39,026 nucleotides of DNA from a virus. Where the stretch lies: positions 1-39,026 of IMG/VR virus record IMGVR_UViG_3300034073_003716; one strand, 5' to 3'. The notes under the pieces were generated by a model, which was not told where the DNA came from, searched no databases, and saw nothing but the letters and a program-made list of their open reading frames with translations. This document shows positions 4,389 through 37,018 of this stretch, piece after piece. Both the position numbers and the translations under genes were made by a program. How positions within the stretch are numbered: position 1 is the stretch's first letter; each line of letters begins with the position of its first letter.

Positions 4389-5000
4389 TCAAAACTCACA
4401 TTCTATATTAAACGAAATAGTAGTTCTACTTTTCAAGCAAGGATTTACGAAATGCATAAGTTCTGCCGGAAAGAAAATTACATTTCCTTCTTTTATATGT
4501 TTTGTTTGATAACTTTTTAATCCTGAATTGACATCATATAAGTGACAATTGTTATTATCTACAAATACCGTAGTATTTTCTTCTTGCACATCAAGTAAAT
4601 AAATTCCAGAATAGTGCATTGTAAGATTATTTTTTTCGTGAGTATGAATTTCTTGATGCATACCTTCAGTATAATGATTATACCAAAGGTTTCTTACATA
4701 TGATTTTATTGGTATAGGAACATTCAAAACTGATTTATTTAAATTTAAAAGCATTTCATCAAAAGTATTCCATATCACTTCATCAAAAAAATCCTTTTCA
4801 AAATTTACATTAGGACCTTCATCTTTCATAAAGAACGAAGTAATGCAATCACAATTCCAAGATTTATTTTTTGTTTTGCATTTTTCACTGTACTTATTTT
4901 TATGGTCTATTATTCTGGGATAATATTTACTTTTTATTTTATCGTGAGTTTTAACTTTATCCCAGTAAACAAATTTCGCAGGGAATGTAAATATATTCAT
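4389..5000 (-). CDS. Putative 2OG-Fe(II) oxygenase, 203 aa
   Basis: The C-terminal half looks like a jelly-roll 2-oxoglutarate/Fe(II) oxygenase: IHTHEKNN (candidate H-x-H/E metal site), NLTMHYSGIYLLDV, then GNVIFFPAELMHFVNP with the distal His, and a final Arg-Thr-Thr-Ile-Ser-Phe strand for the co-substrate. The layout fits the small phage 2OG-Fe(II) oxygenases often annotated in cyanophages. The substrate is unknown. It is the last gene of cassette A and has no counterpart at the end of cassette B, so it may be a later addition. Its DNA is more AT-rich than that of the neighbouring small genes. Confidence 0.7.
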   Translation of the reverse strand: MNIFTFPAKFVYWDKVKTHDKIKSKYYPRIIDHKNKYSEKCKTKNKSWNCDCITSFFMKDEGPNVNFEKDFFDEVIWNTFDEMLLNLNKSVLNVPIPIKSYVRNLWYNHYTEGMHQEIHTHEKNNLTMHYSGIYLLDVQEENTTVFVDNNNCHLYDVNSGLKSYQTKHIKEGNVIFFPAELMHFVNPCLKSRTTISFNIECEF

Positions 5001-5018
5001 TATAAAAATTTAATTAAT

Positions 5019-5345
5019 TCATCTTGCAATATTTGATATCCTTTTCTCTAAGATATTAATTTGAACATCTTCAGTAATTTTATTTGCAATATTTCCAGAT
5101 ATAATTTCCCAAGATATAGTATTATTAGAAACTTCTCTGCGATAAATGTAATTATTGTAATTAAAATATTCAACTTTTTCTGCCGAATATTCCAGTTTCA
5201 TTTGGGGAGTATCTTCTATTTCATTATGAGATCTAAAAGATATAATTGGTTTGGGTTCTTGTTCTACAATTATTTCTTCTGTAGGTTCGTTGTTTATTCT
5301 ATTATAATGTTCAAGTAAACTTTTAAGATTTTCAGTATTTGTCAT
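5019..5345 (-). CDS. Cassette A small protein with YNNYIYRREV motif, 108 aa
   Basis: I chose ATG 5345 because a longer reading needs a TTG. The C-terminal half holds EYFNYNNYIYRREVSNNTIS followed by a Trp-Glu-Ile strand. The paralogue at 29478-29909 has YNNYKYRREV and the same strand. The N-terminal halves differ: this one is acidic with many prolines, the other is His-rich. Always downstream of the tail-assembly chaperone. Function unknown, perhaps a fibre chaperone or adaptor. Confidence 0.75.
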   Translation of the reverse strand: MTNTENLKSLLEHYNRINNEPTEEIIVEQEPKPIISFRSHNEIEDTPQMKLEYSAEKVEYFNYNNYIYRREVSNNTISWEIISGNIANKITEDVQINILEKRISNIAR

Positions 5346-5347
5346 AA

Positions 5348-5857
5348 TCAACTAGGGGGTATAGGCCAACTTGGGTGATTTGGATCATCAACTAAAGGTT
5401 TGGGATCAGTAATACTTTCAGGAAGATCTCTAAGTTCCTGTCTATAATCAGACCATGCAATTTTTTGTGCTTCTGTTAGAGGAGCATCTGATAATTGAGT
5501 CCAGTCTGATTGTGTCAACAACCAATTTCTTGCTTCTCTAAGTTCTTGCCAGTAGTCTCTAGATGCTTCTATTGCGGCCAATTCATCTAGTCTTTGCTGT
5601 TCACGTCTTAAAGATTCTTCCTCAAATGTCGTAATTGCCTGAGCAAAAATTCCCAACTCAGTAACTCTTTCATTTGGTCTTTTAGGGTCAAATGGATGTG
5701 CTTTAAATTCTATTTCTCCCTCATTCCTATCTGAATACCAATGGAATACATGAACATCATTTGGTATCCAAGTTAAGTATTGAGGGTCTATTTTTAATAG
5801 AAAGTTTCCATCTATACCTATTGCACCATCAGATGGTACTACAGTTATATTACTCAT
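5348..5857 (-). CDS. Tail-fibre assembly chaperone-like protein, 169 aa
   Basis: The C-terminal part has the sequence style of the phage tail assembly chaperone family (Phage_tail_APC): RNWLLTQSDWTQLSDAPLT, then W-x-x-YRQELRDLP and a Pro-rich end (DPNHPSWPIPPS). The N-terminal 50 residues (VPSDGAIGIDGNFLLKID) form a beta-rich domain ending in VFHWY. Family members are thought to help fold or attach tail fibres, which fits its place below three fibre genes. The paralogue at 29914-30450 shares both ends. Confidence 0.8.
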   Translation of the reverse strand: MSNITVVPSDGAIGIDGNFLLKIDPQYLTWIPNDVHVFHWYSDRNEGEIEFKAHPFDPKRPNERVTELGIFAQAITTFEEESLRREQQRLDELAAIEASRDYWQELREARNWLLTQSDWTQLSDAPLTEAQKIAWSDYRQELRDLPESITDPKPLVDDPNHPSWPIPPS

Positions 5858-6225
5858 GAATCAGTTTCCTCCTCTGTGTCTGTTCCAGGTTCTATCATAT
5901 TTAGAGGACCATCAAGTGGAGTTACATTCGTAGGAAGAACATAACCTTCTTTAACTTGATCCATAAAGTTCAAATAGAGTTGTTGGTTTTCTGCATTGGT
6001 TCTTACAACTTCGTTTCGGAAAGATTCAACTGCTGCACCCGCTTGTCGCGCTTGCTGTGATGTTTCAATTTGCATCATTGGCAACCAAGCAATAGCACAG
6101 TTCCATTCATCAACCATTTCTCCGGTGTTTGGATTCATTCCACGAACTTGAATGAACCAAGAACACTTAAGTCCAACACAATCCTTCTTAATCAAAGGAC
6201 ACCACTTTCCAGGTTTAATTTTCAT
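5854..6225 (-). CDS. Cys-containing cassette protein, 123 aa
   Basis: The first 50 residues carry KWCPLIKKDCVGLKCSWF and later a WNCAIAW, giving four Cys that could hold zinc or an iron-sulphur centre. A helical QQARQAGAAVESFRNE segment follows. The paralogue at 30450-30809 keeps all four Cys and the GMNPNTGEM stretch. It always sits between the PKHD hydroxylase and the chaperone. An Fe-S or Zn accessory of the oxygenases is possible but unproven. Confidence 0.75.
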   Translation of the reverse strand: MKIKPGKWCPLIKKDCVGLKCSWFIQVRGMNPNTGEMVDEWNCAIAWLPMMQIETSQQARQAGAAVESFRNEVVRTNAENQQLYLNFMDQVKEGYVLPTNVTPLDGPLNMIEPGTDTEEETDS

Positions 6226-6228
6226 TTT

Positions 6229-6918
6229 TTATTCTCCGTAATGTCTAAGAATTTCATTTTTTATATTTCTTGCAATAAAAAGAGGATCTTTAAGAGTTAC
6301 TTTACAATCAGTATGATGAACTGGACTTGATTGCTTTTCTAAACCATCTATTAGTAGTTCTAATTGATAGTTCAAATTTCTCATAAAGTTGTCTTTAATT
6401 TTACTCTTTGTCCAAAAAACAGAAACATACCTTGTTCCTGATACAACTTTGTTTACTCTATGTATAGTTCCTGTAGGATAGGTTATTGCCCATCCAGCAT
6501 CAAGTTTAAACATTTTTTCATCATCATTCCCCATCAATAAACATAGTTCTCCACCATCATAAGTTTCTGGATCACTTAGAAACACAGTAGTACTATAGTC
6601 CCCATTGCACCAATTGTCAAAGTGTGGATTGTAATAATTTCCAGATTCAGTTTTTGAAATAATATTTAGATTTGTACTTGATGCTGCAGTATATGTCAAG
6701 AATTTTTTATCACAATCTAATGACTGCATAATACAATCATTAATTGTTTGAAGCATTTGAAGATCTGAAAGTTCTTTATTGGACTTAGTAGAAACATAAC
6801 CTCCACCACTAAGTAATCCATCATGCCAAAGATTATGTTCTTCAGCATGTTTAAGTAAATTTTGAATAAGTTCTATTTGTTCTTTTTCAAGAACTTTTCT
6901 AACATAATAGTTTATCAT
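6229..6918 (-). CDS. PKHD-type 2OG-Fe(II) hydroxylase, 229 aa
   Basis: Non-haem iron hydroxylase of the PKHD (YbiX/PiuC-like) type. The iron triad is visible as H99-F-D101 (NPHFDNW) and H153 (GTIHRVN), with R163 in GTRYVSVFW for 2-oxoglutarate. The length fits the family's usual 220-230 residues. ATG 6918 was chosen because it overlaps the upstream TGA (ATGA); the longer reading would need TTG 6927. The substrate is unknown. It is translationally coupled to the two-domain oxygenase and lies between fibre genes and a fibre chaperone, which suggests a role on fibre proteins. Paralogue at 30822-31514. Confidence 0.88.
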   Translation of the reverse strand: MINYYVRKVLEKEQIELIQNLLKHAEEHNLWHDGLLSGGGYVSTKSNKELSDLQMLQTINDCIMQSLDCDKKFLTYTAASSTNLNIISKTESGNYYNPHFDNWCNGDYSTTVFLSDPETYDGGELCLLMGNDDEKMFKLDAGWAITYPTGTIHRVNKVVSGTRYVSVFWTKSKIKDNFMRNLNYQLELLIDGLEKQSSPVHHTDCKVTLKDPLFIARNIKNEILRHYGE

Positions 6919-8129
6919 ACTAACCAAGTAATAATAGAGTAACGAGTTCCTTGAATAACAGGCATAATTTCATGAGGATACATGAAATTTGAAGGGAATA
7001 CAATTGCAGAACCTTTTGAACTTTTAATCATCATTTCCCTTCCAAAAAAAGCAAATTCTCCACCAACATAATCCTCATTTAATTGTAAAGAACAAGAAAG
7101 AGATCTTTGCTCTTCTTTAAATGAATCTGTATGTTCAATGTAATAGTTTCCTTCTTCATATTTTAATAGTCCATAACCAGTATCAACATTTATTCTAAAA
7201 TCTTTATGAATATCAGTATATTTAATTATAACATTGCGAATACTTTCATGAAGTCTTTCATCAATTGTTTTTCTTTTATGATAATTCTTTTGAATAACAC
7301 CAGGATCAGATATAAGAATTTGTTTACAATTTCTTATATCTTTGACTATCTCTCCCTGCCCAACCATTGTATGCTGCCAATTATTTTCACCATTGTTTTC
7401 ATCATATTCACTCAAAATTTCATCACATAATTCTTCAGGAACTATTCCCTCAAAAACATGAATATATTGCTCAAGAGTATTTGATGGTTTTGGAATTACA
7501 AGCATAGGAGATTGCTGAGATTCTATTATCAACTCATGTTCTGGTGAGAGTTTATTTTCTATTATATCTTTCTTTTCAGTCTTTTCAGAGTCATCTTTAC
7601 ATTTATCAAAATATGCATAGGCACAATCTCCACGACTTCTTACATAATGTAAGAATACTTGAGTATAGTAATCTCCATTATACTCATTTCTCCAATGATC
7701 TGCAACCTTACCAAGATACATCATTGCATCTCCAGGTTCTAAAATTACAGACTTTTCTCTTCCATCTGGAGTTTCAATGTATATTGGCCAAGACTTATCA
7801 CCGTCAAGATGAAGTGTGAGTGAAATTTCACAAGCGTCACGATCTCTATGTCTATTCAAGACACTTCCATTATAATAAACTCTTGAATATGCATAAGTTG
7901 GCAAAACAGTTTCTTCTAGAATTGAAGATACTTGTTGAGTTTTTTCACAAAGTAGTTCTAAGAATGAAATATAATTATACTCTGATTGTGAATTTGGTGC
8001 CTGAGAGTCTCCACCATTATTTTGTGATTCTGAGTATATTTTAAATTCTTTTCCTAATTCTTCTGCTCTATGAGAATTTATGAAGTTTGGAATAATAAGA
8101 TAGTTATTATTTAATAAATTTATATTCAT
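6915..8129 (-). CDS. Two-domain 2OG-Fe(II) oxygenase, 404 aa
   Basis: Two oxygenase domains lie in one chain. Domain 1 (about residues 1-165) has H94-R-D96 in LNRHRDRDACEIS and H145 in ADHWRNEY. A charged linker follows at about 175-215. Domain 2 (about 220-404) has H333-T-D335, a GGEFAFF strand, H386 in YPHEIMP and R396 in GTRYSIITW, a complete prolyl-hydroxylase-like site. Domain 1 is less canonical because I see no clear 2OG-binding Arg besides those in HYVRSRG. It is immediately downstream of three fibre-tip genes and coupled to the PKHD gene. Paralogue at 31514-32803 with a longer linker. Confidence 0.85.
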   Translation of the reverse strand: MNINLLNNNYLIIPNFINSHRAEELGKEFKIYSESQNNGGDSQAPNSQSEYNYISFLELLCEKTQQVSSILEETVLPTYAYSRVYYNGSVLNRHRDRDACEISLTLHLDGDKSWPIYIETPDGREKSVILEPGDAMMYLGKVADHWRNEYNGDYYTQVFLHYVRSRGDCAYAYFDKCKDDSEKTEKKDIIENKLSPEHELIIESQQSPMLVIPKPSNTLEQYIHVFEGIVPEELCDEILSEYDENNGENNWQHTMVGQGEIVKDIRNCKQILISDPGVIQKNYHKRKTIDERLHESIRNVIIKYTDIHKDFRINVDTGYGLLKYEEGNYYIEHTDSFKEEQRSLSCSLQLNEDYVGGEFAFFGREMMIKSSKGSAIVFPSNFMYPHEIMPVIQGTRYSIITWLV

Positions 8130-8183
8130 AACGATTTTTTGATTATCTTAGAATTATAATTGATTTCTACTTAAATGTCAAAA

Positions 8184-8834
8184 TTAAGGTTTAATAGATT
8201 TCTCAGCAATAATCACATCTCTATATAAAACTGAAAAATCCTCTTGAGATGCTGGTCCAGGAACAGTGTGATTGTGTTGGCCACTAATTGTGTGTGTATG
8301 AGGACTATTAACGGTATGTGAGTGTTGTCCAAAAGTAATTGAATGAGAGTGTCCTTGACTTGATCCTTCAGAAGTACTTACTCTAGAATCTGTATCTGAA
8401 CTTCTAGTAGGTACTGCAGCTGGTCCAGCATAAAGTTCAATATTGTGAAGTTCGTAAAGATGCGAATGTGAAGGAAGATCTGCAGCATTTGATGTGGTTG
8501 GTGTTGTTGCACTAGCAACTTGTTGCCCCGAACTTATATTTGCGGGTGAACTGCTAAAAGTTATTGCAGATGCATTTTGATCAATGGTCAATCCTAAACT
8601 TCTAGTCGTAAATGTTTGAGAAAATGCAAAATTTGTCCGTGAACTTGCATTTCCAGTAACAACCCTTAAAGCAATACCATTAGTACTATAAGTCGTATCT
8701 TTAACCCAACTAGTAGGTGCGGAGGCATTTTCAAAAATTGCTCTAAATCCTCTTAGATCGGTGGGATCAGTCCCTCCTAAAAAATTTTCAATATAGAGAC
8801 AACCTGTTAGAGTTGTTGAACCTAAAACTGCCAT
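8184..8834 (-). CDS. His-rich tail-fibre tip protein A3, 216 aa
   Basis: One of six paralogues in the window. The N-terminus GSTTLTGCLYIENF and the APTSWVKDTT...ALRVVTG block resemble the collar-type region of phage tail fibres. The C-terminal 90 residues carry about ten His-x-His motifs (HSHTV, HTHTISGQHNHT), and the chain ends DFSVLYRDVIIA. In T4 gp37, H-x-H motifs of a trimer bind iron ions along the receptor-binding needle, so a metal-threaded trimeric tip is likely. It lacks the usual IPDFI at residues 13-17 (IENFL). Receptor unknown. Confidence 0.8.
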   Translation of the reverse strand: MAVLGSTTLTGCLYIENFLGGTDPTDLRGFRAIFENASAPTSWVKDTTYSTNGIALRVVTGNASSRTNFAFSQTFTTRSLGLTIDQNASAITFSSSPANISSGQQVASATTPTTSNAADLPSHSHLYELHNIELYAGPAAVPTRSSDTDSRVSTSEGSSQGHSHSITFGQHSHTVNSPHTHTISGQHNHTVPGPASQEDFSVLYRDVIIAEKSIKP

Positions 8835-8854
8835 TTTTATACTTTTATATTACT

Positions 8855-9532
8855 TTATATAGAACATGAAACTGGATCAGAATCTTTTACAGCAACGATT
8901 ATGTCTGCATAAGAAACTGCAAAATTTTGAGCAGTTGCTGAGAATGTATGATTATGAGGTCCAAGTGATGTAATTTGATGTCCGTGTGCTGTAACGGTAA
9001 CTGGATGATTGTGTTGTGCGGTTGCAGAAAATCCATGAGGATGACCACCTCCAGATCCTGCTCCAATAAAAGTTGTTTGAGTTACTTGAGTTCTTATAAT
9101 ACTTCTAGCACCAGGAGAAGGTGTCATAGTTCTCGCCTGAGCATTTGGCATTCGGTCATAAGTATGAACGTGCCCTGGTAGTTGAGCCTCAGCAATAGTT
9201 GCATTCTGTATTCCAAGAGATGGAAATGAATCAAATTGCCCAATTGCAACGGGACTTACAGTTTCATCTGCAATCGTTATGTTAGAATTAACAGAATCTA
9301 TAGAACCTTGAATTGGTCTTGCAGTATCGGGAAAAACTGTAGTAAATGCATTAGTTCCTCCAGGAACTCTTGTACCTGTAACTAATCTCAGTGCCTTATT
9401 GTTATGAGAAGTAGTGTCTTTTGTCCAACTTGTTGGAGCAGAAGAATTATTAAATGTCATTCTAGTTGTTCCTGGAAGGAAGCATGGTATAGATGAACAT
9501 CCATCTAAACTATTTACTGTTAATACTGCCAT
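8855..9532 (-). CDS. His-rich tail-fibre tip protein A2, 225 aa
   Basis: Same plan as its neighbours: an N-terminal VNSLDGCSSIPCFLPGTTRM block, APTSWTKDTTSHNNKALRLV, a Gly/Ala-rich variable middle, then H-x-H repeats (HPHGFSATAQHNHPVTVTAH) and a final FAVSYADIIVAV strand. The ATG overlaps the upstream stop (TAATG). The variable middle and conserved ends fit a family of receptor-binding tips. It has an extra SDPVSCSI tail after the usual end. Confidence 0.8.
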   Translation of the reverse strand: MAVLTVNSLDGCSSIPCFLPGTTRMTFNNSSAPTSWTKDTTSHNNKALRLVTGTRVPGGTNAFTTVFPDTARPIQGSIDSVNSNITIADETVSPVAIGQFDSFPSLGIQNATIAEAQLPGHVHTYDRMPNAQARTMTPSPGARSIIRTQVTQTTFIGAGSGGGHPHGFSATAQHNHPVTVTAHGHQITSLGPHNHTFSATAQNFAVSYADIIVAVKDSDPVSCSI

Positions 9533-10182
9533 TAGTTTTTACTGCAAATGATTACATCCATGTATTGAACATTAAAGTCTCTTTGTGTCATTGTAAAAGT
9601 ATGAGCATGTCCAGAATCAGTTTGAACGTGACTATGTGCTCCTGTACTTACTGGATGTTGAGTATGTCCACTATCAGTTATACTATGAGTATGAGCACCG
9701 TTAGCACCAGTAGTTGAAGAAGAACCTGTTCTCAAAGTTTGCTCATAAATTCTTTGTGCAGGACCATTTCCAACCTGAACATCTGCACCACCCCTAAAAG
9801 TATATGGGTGGGTATGGGCAGTCATTTGTGCTACAGTTAAGGTTGCTGGTTGCATTGAAGCTGAAGATGGACTTGAATTAAGACTTATAAATCCTGTTGC
9901 TTGTGCTATAGTTAAACCTGATGGTCCGGAAAATGGAACATTTACACCTTTTGAACTTGAAAAAGCTGTAGTAAATCCTAAAGTCGGATTTCCTCCAGGA
10001 CTTAAAGCAGTTCCATTAGCACCTCCAATAACTCTTAGAGCAACATTATTAAATGCAGCATTCGTTTCTTTAGTCCAACTGGTAGGAGCATTATCTTGCT
10101 CAAATACCATCCTGGAACCAGTAGCAATAAAGTCAGGGATTGAATTGCATCCATTTAAAAAGTTACTTCCAAGAAGAGCCAT
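9532..10182 (-). CDS. His-rich tail-fibre tip protein A1, 216 aa
   Basis: First gene of cassette A. It has the standard start (GCNSIPDFIATGSRMVFEQ), APTSWTKET, a GG-rich ALRVIGG block, an AHTHPYTF motif in the middle and repeated H-x-H towards the end (HTHSI, HSHVQ, HAHTF). A probable late promoter (AATAAATA at about 10204-10214) lies about 25 bp upstream, as expected for a structural protein. The closest relative by gene position and by its AHTHPY or SHTHPY middle is 34120-34770. Confidence 0.8.
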   Translation of the reverse strand: MALLGSNFLNGCNSIPDFIATGSRMVFEQDNAPTSWTKETNAAFNNVALRVIGGANGTALSPGGNPTLGFTTAFSSSKGVNVPFSGPSGLTIAQATGFISLNSSPSSASMQPATLTVAQMTAHTHPYTFRGGADVQVGNGPAQRIYEQTLRTGSSSTTGANGAHTHSITDSGHTQHPVSTGAHSHVQTDSGHAHTFTMTQRDFNVQYMDVIICSKN

Positions 10183-13061: not shown

Positions 13062-13526
13062 TTAACCTTTGATTACTTGATCAAATCCTTCTTCAAGTGT
13101 TGGTAGTTCATACTCTCCAATCATTCTTTCTAAAACCTCAGGAGGAATAACTTTCCCCGGTCTTTGAGTATTTCTTTTAAGTGCAGTTTCAAGAGGAATT
13201 ACAAAATATACTGCGGTCTTTTTATAATGTGCTGGAATGTGCTTAAGTTTTTCTTTTCTTTGCTTTTTTGTGAGATTTGTTTGATCCCAGATTAAACTTC
13301 TATTTTCTTCAACTGCTTTACGAAGAACTTTCATCATAGCAATTTGAGCAAATCGGATATTTGCCTGAAAAATAGTATTATAAGACTGCTGACGCTCTTT
13401 TGCAATCTCCTGAAGAATATCATCAGATGATACTCTCACATAATCTCGGTATTTTTGATTTGAAGAAAAGGTTGATTTTCCACTTGTAGGAATACCAACC
13501 AGAAAAATTGCTTCAGGAGTAGACAT
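13062..13526 (-). CDS. Polynucleotide-kinase-like P-loop kinase, 154 aa
   Basis: The Walker A motif GIPTSGKST (11-19) follows a hydrophobic strand. SSDD (33-36) fits the catalytic Asp of T4 Pnkp-type kinases, and WDQTNLTKKQR (80-90) fits the conserved D-x-T-N strand of the AAA_33 kinase group. An Arg-rich lid (KRNTQRPGK) follows. It is a kinase-only protein without the phosphatase domain of T4 Pnkp. Likely role: phosphorylation of 5'-OH ends of RNA or DNA before sealing by the ligase at 13995. Its start overlaps the HNH gene by 14 bases. Confidence 0.85.
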   Translation of the reverse strand: MSTPEAIFLVGIPTSGKSTFSSNQKYRDYVRVSSDDILQEIAKERQQSYNTIFQANIRFAQIAMMKVLRKAVEENRSLIWDQTNLTKKQRKEKLKHIPAHYKKTAVYFVIPLETALKRNTQRPGKVIPPEVLERMIGEYELPTLEEGFDQVIKG

Positions 13527-13989
13527 AAGTTTTCCAGTCTGAAATATTAGAAGAATTAATAGTTAAGTGAACTTTATTAAATGGTGCTTTTGGTTGCTTT
13601 AAAAGTTTCATTCCCGCTTCTTCTGGAGTTTTATTTCCTTTTTTTGTATTACAGGAAATACAAGCACAAGTTAGATTTTCCCAACTATCATCTCCACCAC
13701 GGGAAGAAGGAATCACATGATCTATAGTAAGATCTTCTTTTGCTCCGCAGTACTGACATGTATGATTATCTCGTTTATGAATCATATTCCTTGAGGGTCT
13801 ATGAGACATAATCTTTGTAAAAGGAATGCGAATATATTCAAAAAGGCGAATCACCTTATTGGATATAAGTTGTGCTTTACGTTTTAGTAGTAAAACAATT
13901 GCTCTCTTCCCATTACAAATGTTAATTGGATTATAATCACTATTTAAAACTAGAATAGAAGTACTTGCTTTAATTTTAAGATAATCCAT
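13513..13989 (-). CDS. HNH endonuclease, 158 aa
   Basis: An HNH nuclease with zinc Cys pairs: HTCQYC (77-81), LTIDHVIPSSRGGDDSWENL (88-106) with the catalytic D-H and the Asn, and CISCNTKKGNKTPEEAG. The N-terminal 60 residues (VLNSDYNPINICNGKRAIVLL) are those typical of phage and cyanobacterial HNH proteins. It lies between the ligase and the kinase, so it may be a free-standing homing endonuclease or a working part of the repair locus. DNA cutting specificity cannot be read from sequence. Confidence 0.9.
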   Translation of the reverse strand: MDYLKIKASTSILVLNSDYNPINICNGKRAIVLLLKRKAQLISNKVIRLFEYIRIPFTKIMSHRPSRNMIHKRDNHTCQYCGAKEDLTIDHVIPSSRGGDDSWENLTCACISCNTKKGNKTPEEAGMKLLKQPKAPFNKVHLTINSSNISDWKTYVYS

Positions 13990-13994
13990 CGCTC

Positions 13995-15176
13995 TTACTG
14001 TTCTTCTTTATCTATAAAGTTCCAGTTCAATCCACCAAACAACCAACGATTTTGATCAATCTTTGACTGAGTGCTGAGTGATTTACTAATCATATCCACA
14101 ATAGTATCCCTAGAACCTTTACCACCTTTCATGGCATACATGATAGGAGCATGAATTGGTAGGATTTTCTTTTGAACAAACTCAACAGCAAAATCTTTCT
14201 TATCTGGATACAGGGTAGATCCCACATTATAAAGGTCTGCCATCTCAGAAGCAAGGTCGTCCACCGATGCCCAGAAGGCATTCTGGAACGCTTTAAGGCG
14301 GGTGGCATCCTCAGGGGTCAGTAGGGGAACAAGGTCGTCTACAGAGTCGCTCAGGATGGTCTGGAGGACGTTCTTCTCCTGACTGATCTGGTCTTTGCTC
14401 TTGTGACGGAGCACGTAGTCGTCACATTTGATTTTCACCATATGCCCGCTGTCAAACCGAATCACCACACCTTCACCATCATCCCACTCACGAACCTGTT
14501 TCACAAACAGTTCAATGTTCTGAACAGAAAGACCATCCACTGCTTTGACTACAGGAATGTTATAGTTTTTACCAGTCTCAGCAAGCATTGAATAATGAAC
14601 ATAGGTTCCACTTAGATTGTCCCTAACAGCAGTAAGAATCAAATTATCTTCTGGATAATCAACTACAATACGATTTTTTCTGGAAACCCATTCAAAAATA
14701 GGAGTCAATCCACAAGCAATGGAAGAACGAATAAACTCAGTGTATTCAGGTTTATCAGCAATGAATTCCTCTGCCTGTTGAGCAATATCAGTAACTCCTG
14801 CTTTGGTTGCAAGACGGAATCCATCTTCAGTTGGAATCGGACGGATCATGCTACCATCCAATTTCTCCAGAACCACATGAGGTTCATAGAGATTGATTTT
14901 ATTCAGTTGAGTTTCATCCTTCTCACCAGCATTAAAGAACTTATGGTAAGGACGGGAAATAAGTTTTCCATCCTTGTTAAAGATTAGACCACGACATTCC
15001 CGACGAATTGAAGACGAGTAGGGATCTTCAGTATCCCATGCAAAAGTATCTTCAAATGCAACAGCATAATTGATAACGGTATAATCACCCTTATCCATCA
15101 CACGGATTTCATCGTATCCATTGATGTCATAAAGAACATCTTCAATGGTTTCAATTTTGGGAAAATCGTAGTTCAT
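13995..15176 (-). CDS. RNA ligase, T4 Rnl1-like, 393 aa
   Basis: ATP-dependent RNA ligase of the Rnl1 family. The adenylated lysine is K105 in EKLDGSM (motif I). RRECRGLIFNKDGKLISRP (58-76) precedes it as in T4 Rnl1. FEWVSRKNRIVVDY (161-174) is motif IIIa, EGVVIRF (235-241) motif IV and VKIK (247-250) motif V. The length is near that of T4 Rnl1 (374). It would reseal RNA, classically tRNA cut by a host anticodon nuclease. It is the first gene after the promoter at 15198-15253, with HNH, kinase and phosphoesterase downstream. A local GC-rich patch lies at about 14230-14400. Confidence 0.92.
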   Translation of the reverse strand: MNYDFPKIETIEDVLYDINGYDEIRVMDKGDYTVINYAVAFEDTFAWDTEDPYSSSIRRECRGLIFNKDGKLISRPYHKFFNAGEKDETQLNKINLYEPHVVLEKLDGSMIRPIPTEDGFRLATKAGVTDIAQQAEEFIADKPEYTEFIRSSIACGLTPIFEWVSRKNRIVVDYPEDNLILTAVRDNLSGTYVHYSMLAETGKNYNIPVVKAVDGLSVQNIELFVKQVREWDDGEGVVIRFDSGHMVKIKCDDYVLRHKSKDQISQEKNVLQTILSDSVDDLVPLLTPEDATRLKAFQNAFWASVDDLASEMADLYNVGSTLYPDKKDFAVEFVQKKILPIHAPIMYAMKGGKGSRDTIVDMISKSLSTQSKIDQNRWLFGGLNWNFIDKEEQ

Positions 15177-29477: not shown

Positions 29478-29909
29478 TTATGATGCATTTAGTTCATTAT
29501 ACTTCCTTTCAAGTACTTCAATTTGTTTTGAATGAAATATGCGATAAAATACAGAAACATTGTATGAACTATTACTACTTGTAAAAGCAATTCTTTCAAT
29601 TTCCCAAGTAATATTACCATCACTTAAGACTTCTCTCCTATATTTGTAATTATTATAGATCAAATATTCACATTTTTCAATTTTAACATCTGATCGTTCC
29701 ATGTTTTTTATTGGAACTATATCTTTTTCAATAATAAGATTTTTTACACCATTATCATTATTTGATACTATATTCTCCTCATGATGTTCATGATATCTAT
29801 GATGTTCATGATGTTCATGGTCATGATGTTCATGATTATTTTCACTATTTTCATTATGATTTTGATATGAATTTAACAATTCAATGAGTTCTCTAGATTT
29901 ATCTATCAT
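29478..29909 (-). CDS. Cassette B protein with His-rich tract and YRREV motif, 143 aa
   Basis: Residues about 20-45 are almost all His, Glu and Asp (HEHHDHEHHEHHRYHEHHEE), an obvious metal-binding tract. The later YNNYKYRREV block with a Trp-Glu-Ile strand matches 5019-5345, which has no His tract. The DNA of the tract is a CATGATGTT-like tandem repeat, so it may have grown by slippage. It is the last gene of cassette B. It may store or deliver iron for the oxygenases or His-rich fibres; that is inference only. Confidence 0.75.
   Translation of the reverse strand: MIDKSRELIELLNSYQNHNENSENNHEHHDHEHHEHHRYHEHHEENIVSNNDNGVKNLIIEKDIVPIKNMERSDVKIEKCEYLIYNNYKYRREVLSDGNITWEIERIAFTSSNSSYNVSVFYRIFHSKQIEVLERKYNELNAS
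29780..29838. repeat. Short tandem repeat encoding the His tract
   Basis: Imperfect copies of CATGATGTT or TCATGATGT over about 60 bases (plus strand). They encode the HEH/HHD tract of the 143-aa gene. The repeat is a likely site of length variation. Confidence 0.75.
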
Positions 29910-29913
29910 AGTC

Positions 29914-30450
29914 TTAAATATCCGATGGTGGAATTGGCCAATCTGGGTGATTTGGATCTATAGTCAAAGCAATGGGATCTTCAACAGTTTCTGGAAGGTC
30001 TCTAAGTTTTTGCCTATATTCTGCCCACTGCATTTTTTCTTCTTCAGTAAATGGTGAATCTGGAAGCATTATCCAATCAGTTATTTCTAACCGACCAGAC
30101 CTTTCTCCTCTTAATTTTTCTTCTGGGGAAAGATTTTCAAATGTATTTAATTGAGACTGGATAACTGCTTCTTCAGCAATTCTCCTACTCATTTCCTGTT
30201 CAAAGACTTCAATAGCTTGAGCAAATTCACCAACACTATCAACTCTTGAATTCCAACTTACGTCTTCAGGATCATCCCATGGATTTCTATGGTATTCAAT
30301 ATCTCCCCATTGAACTTCGGGATACCAATGAAATGCCCTAACATTTTGTGGAATCCAATTCAATAGTTTTTTATCAATATCTGTCAGTACAGTCCCATCA
30401 ACTATTATTGTACCATCTGATGGAACGATAATAAGTGAAGTAGTAAACAT
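29914..30450 (-). CDS. Tail-fibre assembly chaperone-like protein, 178 aa
   Basis: A paralogue of 5348-5857: N-terminal IVPSDGTIIVDGTVLTDID and AFHWYPEVQWGDIEY, C-terminal W-x-x-YRQKLRDLP and DPNHPDWPIPP. The middle contains a Glu-rich helix. Both copies sit in the same cassette position, supporting a role tied to the fibre genes of their own cassette. Confidence 0.8.
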   Translation of the reverse strand: MFTTSLIIVPSDGTIIVDGTVLTDIDKKLLNWIPQNVRAFHWYPEVQWGDIEYHRNPWDDPEDVSWNSRVDSVGEFAQAIEVFEQEMSRRIAEEAVIQSQLNTFENLSPEEKLRGERSGRLEITDWIMLPDSPFTEEEKMQWAEYRQKLRDLPETVEDPIALTIDPNHPDWPIPPSDI

Positions 30451-30809
30451 TATTCATCTCCTCCTTCATTTTCTCCAAGCATATTTAGAGGATTGTCTAA
30501 AGGTGTTATTTGAGACTCTAAAATTTTATTTTGATTAGATTGTTCCATAAAAGACAAATACAATTGTCTATTTTCAGAATTTGCTCTGACCATTTCGTTT
30601 CTAAAAGATTCAACAGCAGCACCAGCTTGCCTTGCTTGCTGCGAAGTTTCAATTTGCATGACTGGTATCCAAGAAATTGCACAATTCCAATCATCCATCA
30701 TTTCACCAGTGTTTGGGTTCATTCCACGTACTTGAATAAACCAAGCACATTTATTACCTACACACTTTTTCTTAATAAGTGGACACCAAGTTCCAGGTTC
30801 AATTTTCAT
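30450..30809 (-). CDS. Cys-containing cassette protein, 119 aa
   Basis: A paralogue of 5854-6225: TWCPLIKKKCVGNKCAWF and DWNCAISW keep all four Cys, and GMNPNTGEMMDD and QQARQAGAAVESFRNE are nearly unchanged. It is one of the best conserved members of the two cassettes, which suggests a general rather than fibre-specific role. Confidence 0.78.
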   Translation of the reverse strand: MKIEPGTWCPLIKKKCVGNKCAWFIQVRGMNPNTGEMMDDWNCAISWIPVMQIETSQQARQAGAAVESFRNEMVRANSENRQLYLSFMEQSNQNKILESQITPLDNPLNMLGENEGGDE

Positions 30810-30821
30810 TTTTTTCTCCTA

Positions 30822-31514
30822 TCAATTATTATAATTAGAAATTCTAAGCAATTCATTTTGAATGTTCTTCACAACAAAGCTTGGATCTCTCATGGATGAA
30901 TTGCAGTCTGTAAATTGTATTGGTACAGGATTTTCTTGAAAATACTTATCAATTAATTGTAGTTGATTGTATATTTTTCTGAAAGTAAGATCTTTAATTA
31001 AACTAATAGTCCAAAATACAGATGCATATCTTGTACCATGTAATACTGTATTAACTCTATGTATAGTTCCAGTGGGATATGTTATTGCCCATCCTGCCTC
31101 TGGTTTAAACATTTGCTCCTCATTTCCAAGTAACAAACAAAGTTCACCTCCAGAGTATGTTGATGGATCACTTAAAAATAAAGTTGTACTGTAATCACCA
31201 TTATTAAAATTATCCATATGTGGTTTGTAATAATCCCCAGATTCATATTTGGAAATGATATTCAAACCAGAACATTTTGCTACAGTGTATGAAATAAAAT
31301 CTTTGTCACTATCCAATGATTCCATTATAAAATCATTAATTTTTTGCGACATATTATGATCGATTAATTCTCTATTTCTTTTTATAGAAGAATTTCCACC
31401 ACCACTCATTAACCCATTTTCCCAAAGGTTATTCTCATCAGCATGTTTTAGTAAGTTTTGAATAATACTTACATGCTCATCATCTAAAACTTTTCTTAAG
31501 TAAAAATTTTCCAT
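30822..31514 (-). CDS. PKHD-type 2OG-Fe(II) hydroxylase, 230 aa
   Basis: A paralogue of 6229-6918 with the full site: KPHMDNFNNGDYSTTLF (H-x-D), YPTGTIHRVN (distal His) and HGTRYASVFW (Arg). GGELCLLLG is also kept. ATG 31514 overlaps the upstream TAA (TAATG); the longer reading would start with TTG 31526. The C-terminal 60 residues are the most divergent part between the two copies. Confidence 0.88.
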   Translation of the reverse strand: MENFYLRKVLDDEHVSIIQNLLKHADENNLWENGLMSGGGNSSIKRNRELIDHNMSQKINDFIMESLDSDKDFISYTVAKCSGLNIISKYESGDYYKPHMDNFNNGDYSTTLFLSDPSTYSGGELCLLLGNEEQMFKPEAGWAITYPTGTIHRVNTVLHGTRYASVFWTISLIKDLTFRKIYNQLQLIDKYFQENPVPIQFTDCNSSMRDPSFVVKNIQNELLRISNYNN

Positions 31515-32803
31515 TAAACTAACCAAGTAATTATTGAGTATCTAGTGCCTTCAGTAACAGGCATAACTTCATGTGGGAACATAAAGTTTGATGGGAACAT
31601 TATAACAGATCCTTTTCTTGATTTAATCATAACTTGTCGATTAAAGAATGCAAATTCTCCACCTTCATAGTCATCATTTAATATCATAGCACATGAAACT
31701 GATCTTTGCTCTTTTCTGAATGAATCTACGTGCTCAACATAGAATCCACCTGTTTCATACTTAAGCAATTGATATCCAGTATCAATTTCTATACCAAAAT
31801 CATTATGCATATCATGATATTTTATCATTGCATTTTTAACTGATTCATAAATTCTCATATCAAGATTTTTTCTATATTCTTGATTTCTACCGATAACTTC
31901 CAAATCACTCATAAGAATATTCTTGCAATTTCTTGCACTTTTGTTTACAGGATTATTTAAATCTGCAACTTCAGCATCTTGCCACTCTGAAGAATTTGCA
32001 AATTCATTTATAATTTCATCACATAATTCATCTGGAATGATGTTATTAAAAACGTGTATGTACTGTTCAAGTGTATTTGATGGGCTTGGCATAAGTGGTT
32101 CTTTGTTTTTTAATATACTATTTTTTGATTTTTCTAGGTTACCATTATCTTCATCAGATACAACAACCTCATCATTAGTCTTTATATCTTTTTGAATATT
32201 TTCTTCAAAAGGTTCTGAAGGATTTAAGAAGAAAGATTTATTAACCCTTACATTTTCATCTTTTGTTGTTATATCCATATCGAAATAACTAGTTCCGTAT
32301 GGACCTCTACTTCTCACATAATGTAAGAATACTTGAGTATAATATTGTCCATCATATTGATGCCTCCAGTGATCAGCATCACACCCAAGATACATCATTG
32401 CATCTCCAGGATTTAAATTGACTTTTTTTTCATTACCTTTTGGATCAACAATGTAAATTGGCCAAGATTTATCTGAATCAAGATGAAGTGTTAGTGATAT
32501 TTCGCATTCCTTTCTATCAGAATGCCTCTCTAAGATATCACCATTTGAATATACTCTTGAATAGCAATATGTTGGTAAAACAGTTTCTTCTAAAATATGT
32601 GAAATTTCTGGGGTTTTTTCACATAAAAGTTCTAAAAAAGAAATGTAATTATATAATGCCCTGGAATTTGGTGCTGCTACATCACCAGGGACATTTTCGT
32701 TTTCTGAAAATATTTTAAATTCTCTACCAAGTTCTTTTGCTCTAAATTTATTAATAAAATTTGGCAATATCAGGTAATTGTTTTTCTTTAATTTTATATT
32801 CAT
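31514..32803 (-). CDS. Two-domain 2OG-Fe(II) oxygenase, 429 aa
   Basis: A paralogue of 6915-8129. Domain 1 has H94-S-D96 (LERHSDRKECEIS) and H145 (DADHWRHQY). The linker is about 25 residues longer and very acidic. Domain 2 has H358-V-D360, GGEFAFFNRQ, H411 (FPHEVMP) and R421 (GTRYSIITW). Both metal sites are kept in both copies, so both domains are probably active and selected. Position directly below three fibre-tip genes is also kept. Confidence 0.85.
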   Translation of the reverse strand: MNIKLKKNNYLILPNFINKFRAKELGREFKIFSENENVPGDVAAPNSRALYNYISFLELLCEKTPEISHILEETVLPTYCYSRVYSNGDILERHSDRKECEISLTLHLDSDKSWPIYIVDPKGNEKKVNLNPGDAMMYLGCDADHWRHQYDGQYYTQVFLHYVRSRGPYGTSYFDMDITTKDENVRVNKSFFLNPSEPFEENIQKDIKTNDEVVVSDEDNGNLEKSKNSILKNKEPLMPSPSNTLEQYIHVFNNIIPDELCDEIINEFANSSEWQDAEVADLNNPVNKSARNCKNILMSDLEVIGRNQEYRKNLDMRIYESVKNAMIKYHDMHNDFGIEIDTGYQLLKYETGGFYVEHVDSFRKEQRSVSCAMILNDDYEGGEFAFFNRQVMIKSRKGSVIMFPSNFMFPHEVMPVTEGTRYSIITWLV

Positions 32804-32825: not shown

Positions 32826-33449
32826 TTAGTCTTTGACACAAATAATCATGTCACGATAGAAAACAGAAAAGTTTTCTGAAGGTACAGGAGATTGTGAATG
32901 ACCATGAGCAACACCACCTACAGTATGGCTATGTTGACTATTAATTGCATGTCCATGAGCAGTAACATTTACAGTATGGGAGTGTTGAGCACTTCCTCCA
33001 GATGCATTACTAAGAATATTTGCAACATCTTGATTAACTGCTTGAGGGCCTGGACTATTTCTACATGCTGTAATTGCATTACATTGATAAAGACCATGAG
33101 AGTGTGCATGAATTGAATTAAGATTTGCAGAAGTATTAAATGCTCCTCTTACTTGTTGTGGATTTATTCCAGACCCCGCAGTGTTTATGCTAGTATTGAC
33201 AGTAATCGTTGCTGGAGTAACAGTTGCAACTTGTTGTTTTGCGGTTAAAACTTGTGCATATGGAGTTGCAGTTCTTGGAGTGACTGTCCCCGTTACTACT
33301 CTAAGTGCAATTCCAGTAGTGCTGGGAACGGTATCCTTTGTCCAACTGACAGGAGCTGATGCATTTTCAAAAATCATCCTAGTTCCTGCAGAAATAAAGT
33401 CAGGAATATAAAGACAATCATCTAAAGTATTTGAACTTAAAACAGCCAT
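32826..33449 (-). CDS. His-rich tail-fibre tip protein B3, 207 aa
   Basis: Starts SSNTLDDCLYIPDFISAGTR, then APVSWTKDTVPSTTGIALRV. The last 60 residues carry many H-x-H motifs (HSHTVNVTAHGHAINSQHSH), ending FSVFYRDMIICVKD. By start and end it is the counterpart of A3 (8184-8834), which shares CLYI and the FSVxYRDxII end. Confidence 0.8.
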   Translation of the reverse strand: MAVLSSNTLDDCLYIPDFISAGTRMIFENASAPVSWTKDTVPSTTGIALRVVTGTVTPRTATPYAQVLTAKQQVATVTPATITVNTSINTAGSGINPQQVRGAFNTSANLNSIHAHSHGLYQCNAITACRNSPGPQAVNQDVANILSNASGGSAQHSHTVNVTAHGHAINSQHSHTVGGVAHGHSQSPVPSENFSVFYRDMIICVKD

Positions 33450-33463
33450 ATTATTTCCCTCCT

Positions 33464-34120
33464 TTAGTTCTTAGATGCTATTATAACATCATAATATGAA
33501 ACTGCAAAATCTTGAGATGCTACTGTAACTGTATGGACGTGAGCTGATGAGGCTATTACTGGATGTGTATGTGCAGCATTGTTTGTTGTGTGACTATGCT
33601 GTGATGTTGCACCTGGGAATGAATGGTTATGCTGAGCATTTACTGGAGAAGCACCATTGTTATTAACTGAAAGATCAGATAATCCCCTTGCAACAACTGG
33701 TTTATTAGTTGGTGGACCTACTGGACCTGGCTGAGCATCTCCAGGAAATCTTACTCCAGAGTGACCATGAGTTGCCAAAGTATTTCCATCTGATGTGCGA
33801 GCAATACTATTCACATTAACTGTAGTTTGTGTAAGACTGAGAGAAATTGTTGCTGGCTGAACTGTTTGTGCATCACCACCAGAACCAGCCTGCACTTGAA
33901 CTGCTTTTTGAGTATCTGGAAAAACAGCAATAAATGGGTTTGTTCCACCAGAGCTAACTGTTCCAGTAACTATACGCAATGCTTTGTTATTATGACTTGT
34001 GGTGTCCTTTGTCCAACTCGTTGGTGCAGATGTTCCATTAAAAATCATTCTCGTTCCAGAAGCAATAAAGTCTGGAATTGAATTACAACCTGTTAAACTA
34101 TCTAATCCTAATATTGCCAT
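33464..34120 (-). CDS. His-rich tail-fibre tip protein B2, 218 aa
   Basis: Starts GLDSLTGCNSIPDFIASGTR, then APTSWTKDTTSHNNKALRIV, identical over most of that block to A2. The end has HNHSFPGATSQHSHTTNNAA, further H-x-H and FAVSYYDVIIASKN. The middle is unrelated to A2 by eye, as expected for a receptor-contacting part. TGATG overlap with the gene upstream. Confidence 0.8.
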   Translation of the reverse strand: MAILGLDSLTGCNSIPDFIASGTRMIFNGTSAPTSWTKDTTSHNNKALRIVTGTVSSGGTNPFIAVFPDTQKAVQVQAGSGGDAQTVQPATISLSLTQTTVNVNSIARTSDGNTLATHGHSGVRFPGDAQPGPVGPPTNKPVVARGLSDLSVNNNGASPVNAQHNHSFPGATSQHSHTTNNAAHTHPVIASSAHVHTVTVASQDFAVSYYDVIIASKN

Positions 34121-34770
34121 CAGTTTTTAGTACAAACTACAACATCTACATATAATATATCAAAATTTCTTCCAGTCATTGTTATTAAATGATCATGACC
34201 CGCACCAGATAATGCGTGACTATGTGCCTCTCCACCATATGGATGACTGTGTTGTGAATTATTTACATTATGATTATGCCCTTGTTGATTACCTCTTTGG
34301 TTGAATCCAACACCAATGTTTCTACCTGTATTTGGAAGTCTTGTTGTTGGAGAACCAGTAACTGAAGTAACATTAACCCTAGTTTGATATGGGTGTGTAT
34401 GAGATACCATAGCACCATCAGGAAGGGCATTAGTTGTTGTTGCAAAGTTACTATTTCCTTGCCCAATAGTTACATATCCAGATGCAGGTCCTGTAGTATT
34501 TGTTCCTGGATGTATAGTTGAATCATTTAAACTAAAAGGACTTGCTTTACCTGAAACAAAAACCGTACTAAATGCTAATTGACCACCTGGAGTTAGACCA
34601 GTTGCATTGGGACCTCCAATAATTCTTATAGATCTATCATCAATTCCAGTTGCAACTTTTGTCCAATTCAATGGAGCATTAGTTTGCTGAAATATCATTC
34701 TACTCCCAGGACCAATAAAATCTGGGATAAATCCACATCCAGTTAAAGTAGTACTTCCAAGTACAGCCAT
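34120..34770 (-). CDS. His-rich tail-fibre tip protein B1, 216 aa
   Basis: First gene of cassette B. Standard start (TLTGCGFIPDFIGPGSRMIF), APLNWTKVATG, an IGGPNATGLTPGG block shared with A1 (IGGANGTALSPGG), a VSHTHPYQTR middle and an H-x-H-rich end (HNHNVNNSQHSHPYGGEAHS). It ends FDILYVDVVVCTKN. An ATAAATA late motif lies 20 bases upstream. Confidence 0.8.
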   Translation of the reverse strand: MAVLGSTTLTGCGFIPDFIGPGSRMIFQQTNAPLNWTKVATGIDDRSIRIIGGPNATGLTPGGQLAFSTVFVSGKASPFSLNDSTIHPGTNTTGPASGYVTIGQGNSNFATTTNALPDGAMVSHTHPYQTRVNVTSVTGSPTTRLPNTGRNIGVGFNQRGNQQGHNHNVNNSQHSHPYGGEAHSHALSGAGHDHLITMTGRNFDILYVDVVVCTKN

Positions 34771-35779: not shown

Positions 35780-35960
35780 AGTCAATATCATTCCAGTGTC
35801 TTATTGCATTTGCAATAATAAATCCATTTGTTACAATTAACTGTATCATAATCAATAGTCTAATAAATGCAATTTTATCAGACTCACTATCAGTTTTTCC
35901 AGATTTTTCACCAAGAGATTTAGCAATGATTCTCCAAGCAGTAGTCTTATATTTTTTCAT
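35736..35960 (-). CDS. Small membrane protein (RxIAKSLGEKSGK family), 74 aa
   Basis: WRIIAKSLGEKSGKTDSESD, then a membrane helix (IRLLIMIQLIVTNGFIIANA) and a KVEC tail. A paralogue of 20655-20873. Its ATGA overlap with the glycosyltransferase gene links them. Confidence 0.78.
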   Translation of the reverse strand: MKKYKTTAWRIIAKSLGEKSGKTDSESDKIAFIRLLIMIQLIVTNGFIIANAIRHWNDIDYATTQTKVECSKIK

Positions 35961-37018
35961 CTATTTTTTATTATCTCTAATGTATTATAGAAAGCTCCAG
36001 TTACAGTAAAATAATTTTCCCATATTTTTCTGTTTTGTTTTTGTATGTCCAATAACTCTTGCTCAGAGTGAGAATTATGAAATTCCCTAATAACTTTATC
36101 AATTTGATTAAAGTTATCTGAATTTTCTTTTGTTACATAAACCGTATTTTTTTGATATGGAATAATATGATCAAATGGTAGAAGACAATCAGTGTCAATA
36201 AGAACGGGTATTCTTCCCATCATAAAAGTTTCTGAGAGTCTAAATGAAAAATTTCCACCACCTCTTATGCATAATGTATATAAATTATTTTCAATATTTG
36301 CAAAATATTCTTCTTGGGATTTTTTAGGAGAACTTTTTTCCCAACTAAGATACTCTGAATGAAGTTCACCTCCCTTTATGTGGAGATTTTTACTTATATC
36401 TCCCCACATGGATCTAATGATGAAATTATAACCAGATTTTTCACACAAGGAATTTAAAATTTTTTCCCTGTAATTATTACTCATACCACAAAACCCAACT
36501 CCAAACTGTTTTTCAGAATATTTCCCCGAAAAACAGTCTCTATTTAATGTTGGACAAGAAAAAATATTATTAAAACTTTTAGACTTTAACCAACTACTTC
36601 TAAAAATTATAATATTTTGATTATTTTTTATGTCTGGAGAATTTAAAAAATCAAATTCATAATCATAATCGTCCCCATAAAATAAAATTAACCCCTTATT
36701 ATGTGATTTGCAAAGATCTATCAAATACTTTGTATATGTGATATCACATTCAAAGTTTTGTGGGGAACATGTTGCAATATATCCAACAACGTAATCACAT
36801 TCATCTATAGTCTTACAAAATTCAAAAGATACTTTTACTATATCTTTGAAAATTTCATATGATTCACTATTTAACTGCGATAAAAATTTATACTTAAGTG
36901 TTTTGGGAAGTAAACAGAAATAAAAATAATTATGAAATTGATCGTAAAAGTTAGAGGGACATTTTAACCTATAACGATTATCAATTAACTCTTCAGTGTA
37001 ATTTGTATAAAACTTCAT
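35957..37018 (-). CDS. Exostosin-like glycosyltransferase, 353 aa
   Basis: The C-terminal part has the exostosin (GT47-like) signature: NNLYTLCIRGGGNFSFRLSE, then FMMGRIPVLIDTDCLLPFDH and IPYQKNTVYV. The N-terminal half is a Rossmann-like region (GLILFYGDDYDYEF, NIIIFRSSWL). It would transfer a sugar from a nucleotide sugar, to phage DNA, protein or a host glycan. The DNA is markedly more AT-rich than its surroundings and the gene is inserted between two array-type genes, suggesting transfer. Confidence 0.8.
   Translation of the reverse strand: MKFYTNYTEELIDNRYRLKCPSNFYDQFHNYFYFCLLPKTLKYKFLSQLNSESYEIFKDIVKVSFEFCKTIDECDYVVGYIATCSPQNFECDITYTKYLIDLCKSHNKGLILFYGDDYDYEFDFLNSPDIKNNQNIIIFRSSWLKSKSFNNIFSCPTLNRDCFSGKYSEKQFGVGFCGMSNNYREKILNSLCEKSGYNFIIRSMWGDISKNLHIKGGELHSEYLSWEKSSPKKSQEEYFANIENNLYTLCIRGGGNFSFRLSETFMMGRIPVLIDTDCLLPFDHIIPYQKNTVYVTKENSDNFNQIDKVIREFHNSHSEQELLDIQKQNRKIWENYFTVTGAFYNTLEIIKNR

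Follow-up and report, generated by a model that had tools for sequence, protein, structure and literature searches.

A cyanophage gene cassette that may pair receptor-binding fiber tips with a prolyl hydroxylase

Prolyl 4-hydroxylases (P4Hs), such as those of B. anthracis (3itq/5hv0), Chlamydomonas (3gze), PBCV-1 (vCPH, 5c5t), and P. putida (P4H-EF-Tu, 4iw3), have in common a double-stranded β-helix (DSBH) fold, an HxD...H triad, and a distal arginine; their substrates are collagen or EF-Tu. Tpa1 and OGFOD1, the prolyl hydroxylases of ribosomal protein uS12, are built of two DSBH domains in tandem, only one of which is catalytic. The long tail fiber of phage T4 ends in the gp37 tip, a collar followed by a needle of HxH motifs. 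Here we describe two gene cassettes that bring proteins of these types together. They lie in a 39,026-base linear viral record (IMGVR_UViG_3300034073_003716, hereafter the window), a marine/freshwater (cyano)phage fragment that, at the DNA level, comes closest to phages of Synechococcus and Prochlorococcus. In each cassette, genes for HxH tips are followed by a gene for a two-domain 2-oxoglutarate (2OG)-Fe(II) oxygenase, which we call OxNC. We consider it reasonably probable that the cassettes encode fiber tips, their assembly factors, and a dedicated prolyl hydroxylase acting on prolines at the tip apex.

The two cassettes, A (10182→5019) and B (34770→29478), are collinear and lie on the minus strand (Table 1). 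Each is composed, in order, of three HxH tips, OxNC, a PKHD-type oxygenase, a four-Cys protein (CYS4), a Phage_tail_APC chaperone, and a small protein. The intergenic gaps are -1, 20, 54, -13, 3, -4, -4, and 18 bp in A, counting the gene at 4389-5000, and -1, 14, 22, -13, 12, -1, and 4 bp in B. In a gene-by-gene comparison, the gene positions, minus-strand order, tight packing, and recurrence of the same eight genes in B agreed with the original prediction, which had assigned an eight-gene cassette to the interval 4389-10182. That interval holds nine genes, one of which (4389-5000) has no counterpart in B. Between the cassettes, the tips are 41, 44, and 46% identical in order, and the identities of OxNC, PKHD, four-Cys protein, chaperone, and small protein are 64, 61, 71, 47, and 33%, respectively. 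Since the three tips match in order, it seems that the whole block was duplicated (or acquired twice). Conserved enzymes and diverged tips would be expected if the tips are receptor-binding parts.

Iron sites and enzyme type of OxNC

OxNC displays two HxD...H triads, DSBH strands, and Foldseek matches to 2OG-Fe(II) oxygenases, and 2OG-FeII_Oxy_3 was detected in both its C-domain and the PKHD protein by Pfam and PHROG searches. Residues H94, D96, and H145 of the N-domain and H358, D360, H411, and R421 of the C-domain (cassette B numbering) were invariant in 72 of 72 non-redundant OxNC relatives. Because the metal ligands are invariant, both domains look active. The iron sites of both PKHD genes are likewise intact, as had been claimed. 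In the C-domain, a 2OG-binding basic residue (R421, 72/72) is located about 10 positions after the distal histidine. The 2OG ligand of the N-domain is less evident: an arginine at +10 is missing, and R147 and R83 are invariant there.

A profile of 62 OxNC proteins was compared with the PDB. The best matches were prolyl hydroxylases (Bacillus P4H at E 4e-10, PHD2, and P. putida P4H), whereas the lysyl hydroxylase LH3 matched far more weakly (E 0.006). The AlphaFold model of OxNC had a mean predicted local distance difference test (pLDDT) score of 86.6, with both domains mostly above 90 and a disordered linker at about residues 179-241; its predicted template modeling (pTM) score of 0.50 leaves the relative placement of the domains uncertain. 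The Foldseek search was led by OGFOD1/Tpa1, P. putida P4H, PHD2, the algal P4H with a (Ser-Pro)5 peptide, Dictyostelium PHD, and the PBCV-1 collagen prolyl hydroxylase. By best profile and predicted fold similarity, the OxNC C-domain is of the prolyl-hydroxylase type.

The P4Hs are thus the best matches of OxNC in both sequence and fold, and OxNC is like them in its genomic coupling to a proline-rich surface protein. It differs from them in sequence (about 20% identity over one domain), in its fusion to a second complete oxygenase domain, and in its putative substrate, a phage fiber tip. With Tpa1/OGFOD1, which are first-rank Foldseek matches over both domains, OxNC shares the tandem double DSBH. 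Unlike in these enzymes, the triad is kept in both domains (72/72), and the strongest similarity to P4Hs lies in the C-domain. The Phold paper describes phage 2OG oxygenases as structurally similar to human EGLN3 (PMC12774648).

The N-domain belongs to a phage family annotated as "ferrochelatase" (phrog_2954/3531; T4-GC 615). We rejected this function, as there was no ferrochelatase match in the Pfam, PDB, or Foldseek results; the domain carries an HxD...H motif in an eight-strand DSBH barrel. The label has propagated through GenBank cyanophage records, e.g., NC_006820 and NC_026927, where a 2OG-oxygenase domain appears to have been misnamed.

By profile, the second oxygenases of both cassettes, their metal triads intact, fall into the same PKHD-type group as PiuC (9ghl, 3dkq); here, they are coupled to fiber genes. 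These putative tip-modifying enzymes probably act on the same fiber proteins as OxNC.

Co-occurrence of OxNC, tips, and neighboring genes

IMG/VR was scanned with OxNC, four-Cys, and tip queries, which yielded about 280 loci. Loci entered the set because they resembled OxNC or the four-Cys protein and not by random draw, and the percentages given below describe the OxNC/tip family rather than cyanophage oxygenases at large. Scans of viral contigs with the PKHD oxygenase and the oxygenase at 22362-22976 returned too few loci for controls.

The co-occurrence of tips and oxygenase anticipated in the original prediction was found. Within 6 kb of OxNC, 50 of 55 non-redundant loci flanked by at least 3 kb on either side had a tip, and 50 of 55 had a four-Cys gene. 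Clusters around the four-Cys gene contained a tip in 52 of 57 cases and OxNC in 41 of 57. In all 18 long contigs or genomes with both genes (records of 26-246 kb), OxNC and the four-Cys gene were less than 1.4 kb apart. Because the latter is a single-copy gene found this close to OxNC in 18 out of 18 records, the order and coupling are far beyond chance. The commonest order among relatives was tip (1-3) - four-Cys - chaperone - OxNC. The order of the window (tips - OxNC - PKHD - four-Cys - chaperone) was also observed in our loci L014, L016, L018-L020, L033, L066, L145-L147, L149-L153, L158, and L159; some of these share a contig and overlap, or are cut off where the contig ends. Many long records contain psbA/psbD-type genes; thus, the carriers are largely cyanophages. 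Two loci binned as Euryarchaeota (L328) and as a Rhodobacteraceae metagenome-assembled genome (L329) look viral, with a tip - four-Cys - OxNC operon and tips carrying HxHP, an HxH motif directly followed by proline.

The chaperone was identified by PF16778 (Phage_tail_APC; 59.9 bits against a cut-off of 26.6). The four-Cys protein goes with the HxH tip class in general. A hydroxylation-specific role for it was rejected, since it also accompanies OxNC-free tips. Its AlphaFold model had no match in the PDB and matched only uncharacterized phage proteins in BFVD.

Cyanophage 2OG oxygenases have been placed in 2OG/nitrogen modulation or DNA repair (Sullivan 2010, PMC3037559) and are seen as an auxiliary function in the published view (PMC9146016). 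There are many of them in cyanophages, some far from fibers. OxNC might similarly serve the infected host in general, by repairing DNA or by lowering 2OG/nitrogen signaling, with its clustering near fibers being incidental. However, no DNA-repair gene recurred in the OxNC neighborhoods of the surveyed loci, whereas tips, the four-Cys gene, and the chaperone did, and the sequence and fold searches (PDB profile and Foldseek) gave no AlkB-type match to OxNC. We regard a general auxiliary role as very unlikely.

Genes for sugar metabolism are a second feature of many OxNC loci. GT25-like glycosyltransferases, usually two or more, were found downstream of OxNC in 22 of 55 clusters and in none of the 43 four-Cys loci without OxNC. 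They were often accompanied by a DegT aminotransferase fragment and, at some loci, by a NolO-type carbamoyltransferase or epimerases. The assignment to GT25 is strong by phrog_2835 "glucosyltransferase" (E 1e-34 to 1e-40) and borderline by Pfam GT25 (3.5e-5 and 1.9e-4). Hydroxylation followed by glycosylation is known for Dictyostelium Skp1, plant hydroxyproline-rich glycoproteins, collagen (through GT25), and mimivirus L230. As in such systems, the hydroxylase gene stands beside glycosyltransferases in many OxNC relatives; in window-type cassettes, no GT25-like gene was found nearby. By analogy, glycosylation of hydroxyproline is plausible in the GT25-bearing loci. It is possible that the GT47-like gene upstream of cassette B is linked to fiber modification.

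These genes could also be taken to mean that what the oxygenase hydroxylates is a sugar or small molecule (giving a virion glycan, an antibiotic-like metabolite, or a changed host glycan) and that tips are close by because they share a variable region. Glycan genes, radical SAM genes among them, flank many loci, and a cyano-jumbophage cluster with 2OG enzymes has been proposed to make a capsular decoration or metabolite (Iyer et al., PMC7824862). Yet the linkage of OxNC to tips is kept without recognized glycan genes (33 of 55 loci had none downstream), four-Cys loci without OxNC had no glycan gene nearby, the OxNC fold is that of protein prolyl hydroxylases, and the composition of the tips tracks the enzyme. 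We judge a sugar or metabolite product improbable, and the matching host glycan put forward in the original prediction as a substrate found no direct support.

Proline in the tip apex

A window tip matched the tail fiber family phrog_2097, and the tip profile matched solved phage tail-fiber structures. The collar and two invariant HxH motifs are common to tips with and without OxNC. Judged by collar, repeated HxH, and similarity to solved fibers, the window tips are HxH tail-fiber tips like that of T4 gp37. They share the collar and HxH needle with gp37 and related tips, whereas OxNC-side tips are stand-alone proteins of 160-230 amino acids, occur in sets of 1-3 beside OxNC, and have a proline-rich apex.

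After removal of redundancy at 70% identity, 158 tips had OxNC or an N-domain gene next to them, and 132 of these carried HxHP, compared with only 1 of 24 tips beside no oxygenase (Fisher p 1.4e-14; this and the following p-value assume independent sequences and are to be read with phylogeny in mind). In a separate scan started from a tip query without HxHP, the respective counts were 8/8 and 1/15 (not de-duplicated). We defined the putative apex as the stretch between the first and last HxH of a tip. Proline comprised 9.6% of the apex in OxNC tips as opposed to 1.4% in oxygenase-free tips; with the HxHP prolines left out, the values were 7.6% and 1.2% (Mann-Whitney p 1.4e-13). Loci where the only oxygenase had a single domain were intermediate, with 4.6% apex proline. 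In isolates, the tips of S-SCSM1 and S-SCSM2R have HxHP, and those of P-SSM2, S-B05, and CRP-361 do not. S-SCSM1, whose host is Synechococcus WH7803, carries consecutive tip, four-Cys, chaperone-like, and OxNC genes, with the apex motifs HTHP and HNHP, and would make a good laboratory system. No isolate phage was found by tblastn with tip 1 of cassette B.

Nucleotide composition was rejected as the source of this enrichment. The OxNC loci are poorer in G+C than the oxygenase-free loci (0.36 versus 0.435), and the proline contrast persists within G+C bins. The four-Cys and chaperone proteins of OxNC loci show no proline enrichment. A collagen-like substrate was also rejected, as there is no GXY repeat in the tips inspected.

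Of the twenty residues, proline is the most shifted between OxNC tips and oxygenase-free tips (7.0 versus 2.6%); lysine, aspartate, and histidine are lower in OxNC tips, and asparagine, serine, and threonine are nearly unchanged. The original prediction had named proline, lysine, or aspartate of the fiber proteins as hydroxylation targets. The coupling of enzyme and fiber stands, the comparison narrows the candidate target to apex proline, and lysine was rejected as the marked residue. Even so, the oxygenase could act on the fiber at another residue (Lys, Asp, Asn, Ser/Thr, or a metal-binding His), with the proline-rich apex being a side trait of one tip lineage. Sequence searches identified no characterized relative of the N-domain family among solved structures, LH3 is at least a weak match, the tip phylogeny is compatible with common descent, and the GT25 family includes the collagen hydroxylysine glycosyltransferases. 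The small or downward shifts of the other residues and the prolyl hydroxylases at the top of the OxNC matches speak against it, and we hold it to be unlikely, if not negligibly so.

Iron offers a different link between the tips and their neighbors. HxH needles bind iron in T4 gp37 (review, PMC11705849), the enzymes need Fe(II), and the small protein of cassette B is rich in histidine. The oxygenase, four-Cys protein, and His-rich small proteins might therefore load or protect iron in the needle, with no hydroxylation involved. However, there are only two HxH motifs in most OxNC-linked tips, fibers with 6-9 HxH are often without OxNC, histidine is lower in OxNC tips, and the small protein is His-rich in cassette B only, the stretch being absent from A. 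As the HxH count does not track OxNC, we rejected the idea that the oxygenase is there because of the iron needle, and we give iron coupling hardly any credence.

Several observations weigh against hydroxylation of apex prolines by a dedicated enzyme. In the window, where HxHP is present in four of six tips, the third tip of each cassette lacks it, and the apexes, at 2.8-11.2% proline, have less proline than is average for OxNC tips. Resolution of the tip tree is poor, with a single supported independent contrast, and for that reason descent of the proline-rich tips from a common ancestor could account for the proline signature; a point weighing against pure common descent is that few apex prolines lie in conserved alignment columns. 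S-T4 and ACG-2014f have OxNC but not the HxH tip family, and they also lack the four-Cys gene. The tips of S-SCSM2R are 38 kb away from OxNC and adjoin other 2OG oxygenases, sugar epimerases, and glycosyltransferases. In Betaproteobacteria, the giant repetitive surface protein encoded next to homologues of both domains is not rich in proline.

Conversely, tips occur without OxNC at 24 or more non-redundant loci and in P-SSM2, S-B05, and the Roseobacter podophage CRP-361, which have fiber and four-Cys genes. Both kinds of genomic counterexample named in the original prediction, oxygenases away from tips and tips devoid of oxygenases, therefore exist. Because the oxygenase-free tips do not have a proline-rich apex, the exceptions split in the direction predicted if OxNC acts on apex prolines.

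The four betaproteobacterial loci (L330-L333) comprise OxN- and/or OxC-domain genes, the giant surface-type protein, and an APH-like kinase; at three of these loci, OxN and OxC are two overlapping reading frames. One of them, from Polaromonas sp. CG9_12 (L332:3-17099), also holds an Lcl_C-domain lipoprotein, a SecA-like protein, an M50-like peptidase, and HlyD proteins. In these bacteria, the two-domain oxygenase may be in the service of a surface protein. In S-SCSM2R, a "baseplate protein" (190189-190689; L298:2726-3229) directly after two HxHP tips has an HxD...H pattern like that of a small 2OG oxygenase.

A proposed modification route and its implications

From the gene order, co-occurrence, intact sites, fold, and proline signature, we infer a reaction, its timing, and its effect. 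Each cassette would supply a set of short, interchangeable receptor-binding tips of the collar-plus-HxH-needle type, comparable to the end of T4 gp37, made with the chaperone and the four-Cys protein as assembly factors. With Fe(II), O2, and 2OG, the C-domain of OxNC most likely hydroxylates apex prolines that are still accessible, namely the residue directly after HxH and prolines of the variable loop. This would take place during or just before trimer assembly, and the modified tip would then trimerize. The N-domain, in which the iron site is likewise complete, probably works as a further oxygenase on this protein. Modification would change how stable the contact surface is or its binding chemistry; hydroxyproline could stiffen the loop, form additional hydrogen bonds with the host receptor, or bear sugars. 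In about 40% of relatives, GT25-like genes come next, and the hydroxyls would probably be glycosylated there. In the lineage of the window, the gene after OxNC is the PKHD oxygenase in their place. The full two-step route, in which OxNC hydroxylates apex prolines and phage-specified sugars are then added to them in many lineages, is tentative, and we would sooner doubt than assert it.

Table 1. Genes of cassettes A and B and associated genes in the window
Feature	Coordinates	Strand	Properties
A fiber tip 1	9532..10182	-	216 aa, 4 HxH; HxHP at Pro126 (codon 9805-9807)
A fiber tip 2	8855..9532	-	225 aa, 5 HxH; HxHP at Pro177 (codon 9002-9004)
A fiber tip 3	8184..8834	-	216 aa, 5 HxH, no HxHP
A OxNC	6915..8129	-	404 aa; C-domain prolyl-hydroxylase-like, N-domain of family mis-called "ferrochelatase"
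A PKHD-type 2OG oxygenase	6229..6927	-	232 aa; H102xD104, H156, R166
A four-Cys protein (CYS4)	5854..6225	-	123 aa; general partner of HxH tip class
A tail-fiber assembly chaperone	5348..5857	-	169 aa; Phage_tail_APC
A small protein	5019..5351	-	110 aa; counterpart of 29478-29909
2OG-FeII_Oxy_5 oxygenase (PF13759), A only	4389..5000	-	203 aa
B fiber tip 1	34120..34770	-	216 aa, 5 HxH; HxHP at Pro127 and Pro177
B fiber tip 2	33464..34120	-	218 aa, 5 HxH; HxHP at Pro187; apex 11.2% Pro
B fiber tip 3	32826..33449	-	207 aa, 6 HxH, no HxHP
B OxNC	31514..32803	-	429 aa; N-domain H94xD96...H145; C-domain H358xD360...H411, R421
B PKHD-type oxygenase	30822..31526	-	234 aa; H103xD105, H156, R166
B four-Cys protein	30450..30809	-	119 aa; C9, C16, C21, C43
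B tail-fiber chaperone	29914..30450	-	178 aa
B small protein	29478..29909	-	143 aa; His-rich N-terminal stretch
Exostosin GT47-like glycosyltransferase	35957..37018	-	PF03016, E 9.9e-9; ~1.2 kb upstream of cassette B

Other genes of the window lie outside the two cassettes. A further 2OG-FeII_Oxy_5 oxygenase of 204 amino acids (22362-22976) had very few IMG/VR relatives in a single-protein scan. Between the cassettes, 13995-15176 encodes a T4 RNA ligase 1/gp63-type protein, labeled tail fiber attachment catalyst in PHROGs, and is followed by genes for an HNH endonuclease (13513-13989) and an AAA_33 kinase-like protein (13062-13526). Immediately upstream of the cassette B tips, a glutaredoxin-like domain (34812-35177) was recognized by a sub-threshold Pfam match.

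A literature search of open-licence papers found no report or proposal of phage fiber hydroxylation. Protein prolyl hydroxylases are an already known enzyme type; our sequence comparisons suggest that what is new is their tie to phage receptor-binding tips. If the proposed route is true, the chemical diversity of the host-contact surface would go beyond that of the 20 amino acids, through hydroxyproline or a hydroxyproline-linked glycan. We know of no earlier report of such host-recognition variation in phages.

The 2OG-Fe(II) oxygenases of cyanophages are usually classed with auxiliary metabolic or DNA-repair genes, and their purpose has been obscure. For one family of them, the prolines of the fiber-tip apex now provide a specific candidate substrate, HxHP provides a sequence marker by which modified fibers may be recognized, and a widely copied "ferrochelatase" annotation is corrected. 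If tips are indeed hydroxylated, post-translational chemistry at the host-contact surface would enter into phage adsorption and host range, and predictions of receptor binding that ignore modification would be wrong for these phages.

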